NCBI GenBank assembly: GCA_029260475.1
Contig: JAJDDE010000030.1
Location: 1 to 33,904 of the forward strand
Source of the DNA: Phycisphaerales bacterium
GTDB taxonomy: Bacteria; Planctomycetota; Phycisphaerae; Phycisphaerales; UBA1924
Reading direction: 5' to 3'
DNA: 33,904 nt
In this document: one piece after another, positions 18,227 to 31,078 of the stretch
Layout of the letters: each line of letters starts with the position of its first letter
Position numbering within the stretch: the stretch's first letter is position 1
Position numbers and translations under genes: made by a program
The notes under the pieces: model-generated
Seen by the model: the letters and a program-made list of their open reading frames with translations, nothing else
What the model was told of the DNA's origin: nothing
Database searches by the model: none

Positions 18227-18739
18227 TCAGTCTCTTTGCATCATTGCCCGCAGGTACTGGGCACTTTGGCGGGTCGCGATCGTGGTTTGGCACAAATACC
18301 AACAGATTGAGTGCAAGAGGAACGAAACTCCCATCACGGTCAACCCCCATAGCGTGAAGCCAAAGCCAAACGCTTGCCCAAATGAGCGGATGAGCTTGTC
18401 CGGATCGTCGTTTATCATCCCGCCAACACCGCTCACAAACAGATAACCGCCGAATAGGAAACCGATGATCGAGATGATCGTAATGACGAACATCGTGATC
18501 TTCGCGGCACGACACACACCGTCAAGCCAAGGGCCGTTGACCCGAGTTGTGCTTGATTGACGATGGTGCCGCTCTTGAGACGGGCAAGCGTCATCCTCGA
18601 CGGAACAACCCATAACGCGCCAGCCTGGATTCTGTTTCATCGCATGCGCCTGGGCGGCGAACTCGTTTGAGGCCTCTACCCTGACGACGCCCTGTTGCAG
18701 TGTGTCTGGCTCACTAATCGTGACGACAAATCGAGGCAT
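18227..18739 (-). CDS. Hypothetical two-TM membrane protein
   Basis: I do not recognise a family. The 170-aa protein has a soluble N-terminal part (MPRFVVTISEPD..., about 1-75) in which VRVEASNEFAAQAHAMKQNPGWRV resembles the start of small bacterial beta-alpha domains. Two hydrophobic helices follow (about 81-103 and 122-148) with a short loop, and then a basic tail. The start is secure: AAGGAG lies 6 nt before the ATG at 18739. Base composition is clearly less GC-rich than in the neighbours, which hints at recent acquisition. It is divergent from the Fur-like gene over 79 bp that hold an inverted repeat, so the regulator may control it (inference). Confidence 0.72.
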   Translation of the reverse strand: MPRFVVTISEPDTLQQGVVRVEASNEFAAQAHAMKQNPGWRVMGCSVEDDACPSQERHHRQSSTTRVNGPWLDGVCRAAKITMFVITIISIIGFLFGGYLFVSGVGGMINDDPDKLIRSFGQAFGFGFTLWGLTVMGVSFLLHSICWYLCQTTIATRQSAQYLRAMMQRD

Positions 18740-18804: not shown

Positions 18805-18810
18805 TAGAAT
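18805..18810 (+). promoter_or_regulatory. Candidate -10 element (TAGAAT) of the Fur-like gene, leaderless type
   Basis: TAGAAT differs from TATAAT by one base and ends 8 nt before the ATG, so transcription should begin at or just before the start codon. No Shine-Dalgarno is present. No convincing -35 is visible. Confidence 0.5.
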
Positions 18811-18818
18811 CAATCGCC

Positions 18819-19280
18819 ATGACCTCCCCCCCACCCCCCACGCCCGCTCCCGCGTTCCACATCACCGAGCCGCTCTGCGCCGTCTTCCGGCGGCACCTCA
18901 AGGGGCTCAACCAGAAGTACACGCCCGAGCGGGCGAAGATCCTCGACACGCTCATCGAGGTGGACGACGTCTTCCAGGCCGAGCAGATCCAGTCCACGCT
19001 CCACGAGTCGGGCTACCGCGTCAGCAAGGCGACGATCTACCGCACGATCAAGCTGCTGCAGGATGCAGGGATCATCCAGCAGGTGCTCGTGGACGCCGAG
19101 CAGTCGCACTATGTGCTGGCCTACGGCAAGACGCCGCGAGACCTCCTGGTGAACGCGGACACGGGCGAGATCACGATGATCAACATCCCCGAGCTCGAGG
19201 CGATCCGTGACCGCGTGTGCGCCGAGAAGGGGCTCAAGGCCCAGGGGCACCGGCTGCTGATCTACGCGACGGGGGAGTGA
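18819..19280 (+). CDS. Fur-family transcriptional regulator lacking the usual metal ligands
   Basis: The 153-aa protein has a Fur-type winged helix (about 30-92): YTPERAKILDTLIE, then VSKATIYRTIKLLQDAGII. The dimerisation half keeps the fold pattern (SHYVLAYG, a strand pair, and GHRLLIYATG at the end). The HHDH-type cluster is replaced by TPRDL (105-109), and both CxxC pairs are absent (VNADTG where the first is expected; no Cys at the end). Typical Fur, Zur and PerR proteins sense Fe, Zn or peroxide through these residues, so this one must sense something else or act constitutively. The N terminus is a Pro-rich extension. A secreted protein is encoded 4 bp downstream. Confidence 0.85.
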   Translation: MTSPPPPTPAPAFHITEPLCAVFRRHLKGLNQKYTPERAKILDTLIEVDDVFQAEQIQSTLHESGYRVSKATIYRTIKLLQDAGIIQQVLVDAEQSHYVLAYGKTPRDLLVNADTGEITMINIPELEAIRDRVCAEKGLKAQGHRLLIYATGE

Positions 19281-19284
19281 ACGC

Positions 19285-19734
19285 ATGACATGCACCGAGA
19301 GCCCAAAGTGTCGTACACGTCGTGTCATGCGCACCGTTGCTTTGGCTCTCGTACTGCTTGCATTCCCGGCTACCTGGATCGTCGCTGAGATCGTGAACAG
19401 AGATCGAATCGAGCCGGGACCGGGTGTTATCGATCTCCCCTCGTTCGCTCAGAACATGGGAGCGCCGACCGCCGCTTATGTGCTGACGATCAACGGCCGG
19501 ACGTACACAGAGCTGATCGGGCACCGAGCCTCATTCCCGAGTGTTCCCTCGGGGCCACCCGCGTACGTCTTCGACGACCGAGGCAAGCTGCTCGCGTTCA
19601 CGTTCGATGACGGGGACGACCCGGGGTACCTCGAACGCTGGCGCTCGGGGCAACGTCACAAGATGACGCCGGCCAACGTCACGCAACTACTCGGTGTCCC
19701 ACTCACTGGTCCGGGAGTGGCTTCGGGGCCTTGA
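19285..19734 (+). CDS. Hypothetical secreted or membrane-anchored protein
   Basis: I do not recognise a family. The 149-aa protein has a hydrophobic segment (about 15-36, MRTVALALVLLAFPATWIVAE) that is either a signal peptide or an anchor, followed by a small polar domain. The start at 19285 has GGGGGAG 7 nt upstream; a later ATG at 19327 would give a more standard signal sequence but has no ribosome site. It begins 4 bp after the Fur-like stop, so the two genes almost certainly share a transcript. Its 3' end overlaps the end of the Na/Pi transporter gene on the other strand by 32 bp. Confidence 0.65.
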   Translation: MTCTESPKCRTRRVMRTVALALVLLAFPATWIVAEIVNRDRIEPGPGVIDLPSFAQNMGAPTAAYVLTINGRTYTELIGHRASFPSVPSGPPAYVFDDRGKLLAFTFDDGDDPGYLERWRSGQRHKMTPANVTQLLGVPLTGPGVASGP

Positions 19735-22501: not shown

Positions 22502-23083
22502 CTACGCGGCGTCGAACCGTCGTTCTTCGACGACAATGCGCGATATCACGAGCCGTGTGTCGCCACGGTGATGGATTCCAGTGGCGCGTACGCACTCAAG
22601 CCGGATATAAAACTGCACCTTGAGCATCGGCGAATCCTCCGGCCGCGACCTTCTCCGGTCGTATAGCCTTGTCGTCCCGATATTCGCGTGCCCCAGCCAC
22701 GTCTGCACGTACGCGATGTCCGCCTGATGCTCGAGCGCGTTGGTAGCGGCCGTCGCCCGAAGCGCGTGCAGGCACAGCCCGTCCATGGTGATCCCCGCCT
22801 TCACGCCGTAGCGCTGCAGCATCTTGTAGACCCCGTCTCCGGTGATCGCCTTCTCAAGCACACCCGTCCGGTTGTTGCGGACAGGACGGAAGAGGGCGCC
22901 CGACCGATCATCACCGTGCCCGGCCAGCTCGAGGTACTCCCGGATGGTGGAGAGCGCCGCCGGGTGCACCGGCACGAAGCGTGTTTTGGAGCCCTTGCCG
23001 AAGACCGTCAGATGCATTGCGCCGCGGCGTTCGCGGAGGTTCGAGACGCGGAGGTCGGCGAGCGGCGTCCGCCTCAATCCCCC
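22502..23083 (-). pseudogene. Tyrosine recombinase/integrase, C-terminal catalytic part only
   Basis: The frame begins abruptly at GLRRTPLADLRVSNL, the segment with the first catalytic Arg, and keeps the rest of the catalytic domain: GKGSKTRFVP (Lys), HALRATAATNALE (His-x-x-Arg), WLGHANIGTTRLYDRR (His and the Tyr nucleophile). The N-terminal core-binding domain is missing; the DNA upstream is the end of yacG in another frame. Related integrases usually end shortly after RPEDSP..KV; here the frame runs about 35 residues further to 22502, so the 3' end is disturbed too. There is no start codon or ribosome site. It is the relic of an integrating element that ended in the yacG region. Confidence 0.8.
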
Positions 23084-23328
23084 GCTTCGATATCCGTGTC
23101 CTTGATCGCACGCGAGATGCGGTAGTCCTCGTTGAACCACTTCCCGAGGTCCGCCATGCGGCAGCGGTCGGAGCAGAAGGGGAAGGTCTCGCATTCGGAG
23201 GTCGTTGTTTGGCCGCAGGTACGGCACGCCGCGGCGACGATCTCGGGCGCGGGGCCTGAATCTGTCCCCGAATCGGGCTTGGCTTTGGGCTTGGCTTCGT
23301 GCTGCCTGGGCTGTTTCGGATCGGTCAT
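23074..23328 (-). CDS. yacG: DNA gyrase inhibitor YacG (zinc ribbon)
   Basis: The 84-aa protein has a low-complexity Lys/Pro-rich N-terminal stretch of about 28 residues, then the YacG zinc site C35-x2-C38 and C52-x3-C56 in ACRTCGQ and FPFCSDRCRMADLGKW. YacG binds GyrB and restrains gyrase in Proteobacteria. The start is secure: AGGAGG lies 6 nt before the ATG, which overlaps the tsaE stop (ATGA). The truncated integrase frame abuts its last codons, so the element inserted or recombined exactly at the 3' end while leaving the protein intact (ending DIEAGD). Confidence 0.88.
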   Translation of the reverse strand: MTDPKQPRQHEAKPKAKPDSGTDSGPAPEIVAAACRTCGQTTTSECETFPFCSDRCRMADLGKWFNEDYRISRAIKDTDIEAGD

Positions 23329-30196: not shown

Positions 30197-31078
30197 ATGA
30201 CCACTCACGTTTTCCGCGCAGGCCCCTGCGCTGTCGCCCTCGAAACCACGCTCCTTGTTCACGGCGTGCCCGCGTCCACCGCCCCGGCTCTGGATGCGGA
30301 GCTGCGCGCGATCTGCCGTGCGGAGGGCGCCGAGCCGGCGCTGGTTGGTGTCGTGGGCGGGGCCCCCACTGTCGGGATGACAGAGCGGGAACTCGCGCTG
30401 CTGCTGGAGCAGGGCACGAGCGTGCCCAAGGCGAACAGCGCGAACCTGGGTGTGCTGTGTCACTGGGGGTCGCACGCCGCGACGACGGTGAGCGCGACGA
30501 TGGAACTGGCGGCGGCGGCGGGCGTGCGCGTCTTCTCGACGGGCGGGCTCGGGGGCGTCCACAAGGGGTACGGTTGCCATCTGGACGTCTCGGCGGACCT
30601 GGGCGCGTTCACGCGGTTCCCGGTCGCGGTCGTCGCGTCGGGCGTGAAGTCGCTGCTGGATGTCGCGTCCACACGCGAGGCGCTGGAGTCGCTGGGCGTG
30701 CCGGTGATCGGGTACCGGACGGACGCCTTCCCGTCGTTCTATACGCGGGACTCGGGGCAGAGCGTCGATGCCCGCTTCGATGACGCTGAGACCCTGGCGA
30801 AATACCTGCGCGCCGAGTTGGAGCGGACCGGGCGGGGCGTGGTGGTGTGCAACCCGATACCCGAAGAAGACGAGTTGGACACCGCATTGTTCGGGGCGTG
30901 GCTGGAACAAGCAGAGGACGAAGCCGAAGACGCCGGGGTGAGCGGGCGGGGCGTGACGCCCTTCCTGCTCGGCCGTCTGCACGAACTCTCGGGGGGCAAG
31001 ACGCTGGAAGCGAACCTCGTGCTGGTTCGCTCGAACGTCCGCCTCGGCGCGGCTCTCGCGAAGTCGATGCACGCCTGA
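30197..31078 (+). CDS. psuG: Pseudouridine-5'-phosphate glycosidase
   Basis: PsuG splits pseudouridine 5'-phosphate into uracil and ribose 5-phosphate, to recycle the modified nucleoside from RNA. The 293-aa protein keeps the active-site elements: Glu16 in ALETTLLVHG, Lys78 in VPKANSANLG, FSTGGLGGVHKGY, DVSADL and Lys151 in ASGVKSLLD, the position of the ribose-binding Schiff-base lysine. The later NPIPEEDELD segment is also typical. The usual partner, the pseudouridine kinase PsuK, is not adjacent. Instead the stop overlaps the start of a sirtuin gene (TGATG). The N terminus is shorter than in E. coli. Confidence 0.92.
   Translation: MTTHVFRAGPCAVALETTLLVHGVPASTAPALDAELRAICRAEGAEPALVGVVGGAPTVGMTERELALLLEQGTSVPKANSANLGVLCHWGSHAATTVSATMELAAAAGVRVFSTGGLGGVHKGYGCHLDVSADLGAFTRFPVAVVASGVKSLLDVASTREALESLGVPVIGYRTDAFPSFYTRDSGQSVDARFDDAETLAKYLRAELERTGRGVVVCNPIPEEDELDTALFGAWLEQAEDEAEDAGVSGRGVTPFLLGRLHELSGGKTLEANLVLVRSNVRLGAALAKSMHA

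Follow-up and report, generated by a model that had tools for sequence, protein, structure and literature searches.

A Fur-fold regulator apparently without the canonical metal sites in a lineage of Phycisphaerales

Fur proteins are metal- or peroxide-gated regulators, and the heme-responsive member Irr carries histidine-rich and Cys-Pro heme motifs, neither of which is seen in the protein described here. The signal of Irr is not a free metal ion (PMC6103462). Papers on Fur differ in the numbering and ranking of the metal sites, and we follow the scheme of PMC6123631 with E. coli residue numbers. In that paper, site S2 of F. tularensis Fur (FtFur) draws His33 and Glu81 from the DNA-binding domain, with His88, His90 and Glu101 contributed by the dimerisation domain, and is called essential, the H33A-H90A double mutant being described as inactive in vitro. 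The same paper describes S1 as a structural zinc site of two CxxC pairs that is absent from PaFur, and S3 (H87, D89, E108 and H125) as unfilled in FtFur, which works without it (PMC6123631). The introduction of PMC11910503 places the regulatory iron of E. coli Fur at these four S3 residues, whereas the results of that paper treat the other site as the regulatory one. Several single substitutions at this other site are reported there to be tolerated, and a protein may therefore lose S2 residues and still bind DNA or respond to metal (PMC11910503).

The window analysed here is a whole stretch of 33,904 nucleotides from a Phycisphaerales bacterium. It encodes a protein that by descent and fold is a member of the FUR superfamily:

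18819..19280, + strand: Fur-fold regulator gene (153 amino acids plus stop, ATG start)
19023..19064, + strand: recognition helix S69-D82, conserved, with A71, T72, Y74, R75 and T76 invariant in 63 rows

The Pfam FUR profile (PF01475) matches residues 32-149 at 1.5e-21 (77.2 bits against a cut-off of 23.1), and since this match spans the whole domain the protein is placed within the superfamily. The best score among the NCBIfam Fur/PerR/Irr equivalogs was 40.7 bits against a cut-off of 220, and the protein fell under the curated cut-off of every one of the 18 NCBIfam models listed. The closest solved structure to its AF2 model (mean pLDDT 93) is Fur 1mzb (Z 16.3, rmsd 2.4, 132 residues), in a tie with 6h1c Fur (Z 15.9), and the comparison with 1mzb revealed both the winged helix and the alpha/beta dimerisation domain. 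The ATxYRT motif of the recognition helix is also present. Compared with Fur from P. aeruginosa (1mzb, 6h1c), E. coli and F. tularensis, the window protein shares the fold, winged helix, recognition helix and domain order, but is without the five S2 ligands and the CxxC pairs, has a new N-terminal PLCxVFRR motif and belongs to a family that does not conserve S3. Its best pairwise sequence match in the PDB is the manganese uptake regulator Mur (5fd5/5fd6), whose host we take to be Rhizobium leguminosarum. Mur also lacks CxxC in the aligned stretch, but unlike the window protein keeps HHDH, H33, E81 and E101. The AF2 model is fitted better by zinc-bound Mur (Z 14.8, rmsd 3.1) than by apo Mur (12.7, 5.0). 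We rejected this closed shape as a sign of metal-free locking, because a ligand-bearing control model in the same test also preferred the metal-bound (13.5, 3.3) over the apo structure (12.3, 5.1), which makes the shape uninformative.

The ligand columns were read from alignments with solved Fur proteins and relatives, and the corresponding positions in the window are as follows:

18969..18971, + strand: V51, in the alignment column of S2 ligand H33
19113..19115, + strand: V99, at S2 ligand E81 (Gln in 37 of 42 family rows)
19134..19145, + strand: P106-R107-D108-L109, at HHDH (H87-H88-D89-H90), with T105 directly before
19152..19163, + strand: N112-A113-D114-T115, at the first CxxC (N112 and T115 for C93 and C96)
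19176..19178, + strand: M120, in the alignment column of S2 ligand E101
19197..19199, + strand: E127, at S3 ligand E108 (Glu in 6 of 64 rows)
19218..19220, + strand: C134 (56 of 64 rows; found too in relatives with intact sites)
19248..19250, + strand: H144, equivalent to canonical H125 (His in 57 of 64 rows)

All five S2 ligands are gone, their columns being occupied by V51, V99, R107, L109 and M120. The second CxxC is missing from the window protein, whose chain stops before that position. S3 nominally retains three of its four residues (D108, E127 and H144), with P106 in place of H87. A first-pass annotation of this DNA had described a lost HHDH cluster and absent CxxC pairs, and the alignment agrees, the cluster reading PRDL. 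The same annotation called the DNA-binding half intact, which holds for its strongly conserved helix-turn-helix but not for its two S2 ligands, H33 and E81.

Orthologues were matched (E ≤ 1e-5) in 59 of 61 genomes, a set made up of the genome of the window and 60 others of its family and order, with no match at this threshold in the other two; among genomes at least 90% complete and with at most 5% contamination the figure was 51 of 53. No internal stop occurs in the matches listed for the 59 genomes. A named collection contributed nine loci, eight of them at 51-70% identity (six titled Phycisphaerales or Phycisphaeraceae) and the ninth, from Pontibacillus, at 21%. With identical proteins counted once, 64 distinct rows were obtained from 58 genomes, including the window's own, and six named loci; a fragment at a contig end (G007) and the Pontibacillus hit (L042) were left out. 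The orthologue alignment (A1) holds 63 of these rows, L067 entering only the 64-row counts. The families carry anonymous handles (f1, f2 and so on), and the window's family has 42 rows (36 labelled f1 and 6 labelled f1?).

The loss noted in the window protein is shared by its orthologues. Of the 42 rows in the window's family, 38 have lost every S2 ligand and four retain a single one; H33 is replaced by Val, Leu or Ile in 37 rows, E81 by Gln in 37 and H90 by Leu, Ile or Val in 37, and neither CxxC pair occurs in any of the 42. Across the 64 order-level rows at most three of the five S2 ligands are found, and the two S2 histidines H33 and H90 occur together in none. By column, the canonical residue is present in 1 row for H33, 2 for E81 (Gln in 54), none for H87, 4 for H88, 42 for D89, 9 for H90, 20 for E101 and 57 for H125, while the first CxxC has its first Cys in 17 rows and its second in none. 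Three S3 residues coincide in just 5 of the 64 rows, and all four in none. Invariant in the orthologue alignment are P18, C20, F23, R24 and G103 together with the recognition-helix residues A71, T72, Y74, R75 and T76. The site loss is not chance: it is shared by the window's family, while the other-class rows examined keep all five S2 ligands. Judged from the aligned columns, S2, S3 and the structural zinc site S1 are not conserved in this family. Metal or peroxide sensing of the canonical kind at the known sites, which the first-pass annotation had already questioned, is unlikely because the ligands are lost in the orthologues too.

The origin of this state was traced with wider searches, which gave matches in 144 of 198 genomes of the class (41 loci examined, 40 of them by choice, with 8 taken as paralogues) and in 139 of 199 genomes of the phylum, from which the 21 best-scoring loci outside the class were taken as other-class rows. 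All five S2 ligands were present in 21 of these 21 rows. Within the class all five are kept in f20 (4 rows), f15 (5), f10 (2), f8 (4), f17 (1) and f21 (1), and in two of three rows of f19; the canonical relative in f10 adjoins feoB and a DtxR-FeoA gene. Both CxxC pairs were found in all 13 rows of f20, f15 and f8 and, by script, in 19 of the 21 other-class rows. The tree assigns the canonical planctomycete Fur proteins of f20, f15 and f8 to the same lineage as the window protein, which differs from them and from the other classes in that these keep the five S2 ligands and are without C20. Elsewhere the number of S2 ligands left is 1-3 in f9, 2-3 in f11, 1-2 in f5, 1-3 in f6 (two further f6 rows having 0 and 2), 0-2 in f2, 2 in f3 and 1 in f4.

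The tree was built by a quick method from 107 rows and 148 columns, the 11 ligand columns being given as dropped, and the other-class rows were aligned but stand outside it. It branches off f20 first; next come f15 together with f10, the set f8/f19/f17/f21, f9, f11 and f5/f6 in turn, and finally f2/f3/f4 and the family of the window, forming one group (97). Backbone supports are 81-97, the root is weak (66) as are many forks, and L144_f22, on a very long branch inside f6, is not trusted in its placement. One gene lineage thus appears to shed its metal sites by degrees: along this order the S3 residues H87 and E108 disappear before H33 and the CxxC pairs do, E81 follows, and E101 is the last to go. 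H90 breaks the clean ladder, being Tyr in all six f11 rows but His in four of six f5 and four of five f6 rows. The losses in the f9 family form a pattern peculiar to it and possibly happened separately. In its rows (L125-L130) both CxxC pairs and H33 are gone (Pro in 6 of 6), H90 is kept in all six, and H88 and D89 in five each.

A new feature of the lineage lies in the N-terminal helix:

18870..18890, + strand: P18-R24 (PLCAVFR), conserved N-terminal helix motif, with C20 at 18876-18878

P18, C20, F23 and R24 are each present in 64 of 64 rows. C20 also occurs in all six rows of f11, the nearest outgroup family, and another 13 rows from the order (including L084, the same protein as L034) have it without exception. 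It is found in none of the 41 rows of families keeping S2, 40 of which have all five ligands, and in none of the six f9 rows. The first-pass annotation had named H97, C20, C134 (the Cys of RVCAEKG) and H144 (the His of GHRLL) as residues that might supply metal ligands instead. H97, C134 and H144 were rejected as replacements and are regarded as ancestral because they are also present in relatives with intact sites. C20, new and universal in the 64 rows, stands as the only new candidate among them, and by its distribution appears where the metal sites fade. Eight of the 64 rows, including all six of f4, have Ala at the position of C134. Together with D108 and E127, H144 might yet be part of a remnant S3 site.

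The start of the gene is preceded by a promoter-like element:

18805..18810, + strand: TAGAAT, -10-like element, 8 nt before the ATG

The fur gene probably has a leaderless mRNA, as 28 of the 40 upstream regions analysed (from 40 of the 42 family rows) have the pattern TAnRMT at a distance of 4-12 nt from an in-frame start, compared with 9.6% at random positions. In the window, where 25 putative starts were picked by eye (2 of them not start codons), the element is seen also at polX (16469) and at the gene at 30197, besides fur.

Selection on the gene was estimated by a simple Nei-Gojobori count for 16 pairs, six from one genus of the window's family and ten from one f4 genus. Whole-gene dN/dS was 0.04-0.18, with some dS values close to saturation. 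For the former sensor half dN/dS was 0.05-0.34, and its dN exceeded that of the DNA-binding half in 16 of 16 pairs. This higher nonsynonymous rate, which has no canonical Fur control beside it, would also fit relaxed constraint.

The window's genome encodes two further FUR proteins. By our own naming, the one that has a histidine run and two CxxC pairs would be Zur-like, and the other, which has no CxxC, PerR-like. The third FUR protein of the genome (L003, G000:C1:8883-9140) is without CxxC pairs and has histidines at H33, H88 and H90. Of the 61 genomes, 56 have a DtxR-type domain, among them that of the window. There, the locus L190 (G000:C124:62500-71500) has three matches to the DtxR-type C-terminal domain by an apparent metal ABC transporter, recognised without a family search; two of the matches lie inside frames of 748 and 911 amino acids, which may be permease fusions. 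In five genomes (G027, G044, G052, G056 and G058), which may be incomplete, the orthologue of the window protein was the only FUR match found, and a FUR protein whose site is intact was therefore not detected there.

Operators were sought with two scans. Exact 6+6 dyads with spacers of 0-12 in 63 upstream regions gave no autoregulatory operator common to more than two regions, a scan that would miss imperfect operators. The dyad total was 111, against a mean of 89 and a maximum of 105 in 20 shuffles, indicating that inverted repeats are slightly enriched. The Fur box TGATAATNATTATCA, allowing up to two mismatches, had no site in the window's genome (G000) or in G058, and 14 sites in others (five in G044, four in G052, three in G056 and two in G022); its backward control had three (one in G052, two in G056). 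Thirteen of the sites were placed (L177 being left out), 11 inside ORFs by the longest-ORF rule and two, L179 and L187, outside. Neither scan yielded targets or a regulon for the window protein.

Taken as a whole, the data suggest that the window protein probably no longer senses metal as its relatives do. Our preferred reading, held tentatively and at slightly less than an even chance, is that it is a transcription factor of Fur fold that has escaped metal control and would either act constitutively or be gated, by C20 or by a partner. We count in its favour the loss of S2, the graded tree, the low dN/dS, the distribution of C20 and retention in 59 of 61 genomes, as well as the DtxR-type domains, the two FUR paralogues and the five genomes with a single FUR match. 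Against it we count that the scans found no target, that D108, E127 and H144 could hold metal, and that the sensor half has the higher nonsynonymous rate in all 16 pairs. This last observation, with the two genomes lacking a match, is what could be said for a non-functional relic heading for loss, the form in which the first-pass annotation's suggestion that the protein responds to nothing would mean a decaying gene. Such a relic is highly improbable: the gene is widely kept and free of internal stops in the matches listed, its recognition-helix residues are invariant, the -10 element is maintained near the start in 28 of 40 upstream regions, and the low dN/dS itself indicates that it is not a relic.

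Among readings that retain a sensor, one based on thiol redox or other cysteine chemistry, in which oxidation or modification of C20, alone or with C134, alters DNA binding, is possible though unlikely. C20 is the sole new invariant cysteine and arises on the branch where the metal sites fade, and C134 accompanies it in 56 of 64 rows; but C134 is ancestral, a C20-C134 pair is not obligatory because of the Ala in the remaining eight rows, and C20 may be structural, alongside the invariant P18, F23 and R24. That the protein senses metal through a remnant or rebuilt site, perhaps D108, E127 and H144 joined by C134 or C20, is less likely still. The first three correspond to ligands of the site to which the introduction of PMC11910503 assigns the regulatory iron of E. 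coli Fur, but their joint presence in so few rows, the absence of H87 from all, the rarity of Glu at E127 (6 of 64) and the incomplete retention of Asp at D108 (42 of 64) argue against it, as does the activity of FtFur with S3 unfilled, reported in PMC6123631. H97, C134 and H144, being ancestral, hence do not compensate for lost ligands. A heterodimer or co-regulator, in which another FUR protein supplies the metal sensing, would have two potential partners in the window's genome and a dimerisation half that retains its fold in the AF2 model comparison, but it is very improbable given the five relatives in which no second FUR match was found.

If the window protein is indeed freed from metal control, its ancestor would have been a canonical planctomycete Fur that lost this control by degrees. 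In the canonical hinge, H33, E81 and H90 would have linked the DNA-binding and dimerisation domains through the metal; aliphatic residues and Gln may now pack this hinge without an ion, and the dimer could therefore bind operators metal-free. The switch, if there is one, would probably be the new PLCxVFRR helix with its invariant C20, acting through thiol modification or a partner protein. Other metal sensing in the window's genome would be left to the two FUR paralogues and the DtxR-type proteins. The fuller scenario, that this planctomycete order made Fur metal-free stepwise, that a PLCxVFRR thiol helix took control and that DtxR-type proteins inherited iron and manganese sensing, is doubtful as a whole.

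The interest of the family lies in its graded series of living intermediates. A Fur lineage with living relatives that have 5, 3, 2, 1 and 0 S2 ligands would offer a test-bed for the passage from metalloregulator to metal independence, and such relatives could show whether the metal did anything beyond clamping the two domains together. The automatic label 'ferric uptake regulator' may mislead for these proteins. A search of open-access titles and abstract openings found no FUR protein without metal sites in planctomycetes, which leaves its absence from print unproven.

The gene neighbourhood was considered as a clue to function and set aside, as the arrangements vary and yield none. In the stretches fetched around 81 loci, with neighbours named by eye, a polX relative was found in at least 11, tsaE in at least 21 and thiL in at least 21, these counts being lower bounds as the ORF picker left the FUR gene unplaced in 6 of the 81. 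In the window, the flanking ORFs at 18227-18739 (- strand) and 19285-19734 (+ strand) have no Pfam match at 0.001, and part of the ORF at 22502-23227 (- strand) resembles, by eye, the C-terminal part of a tyrosine recombinase.
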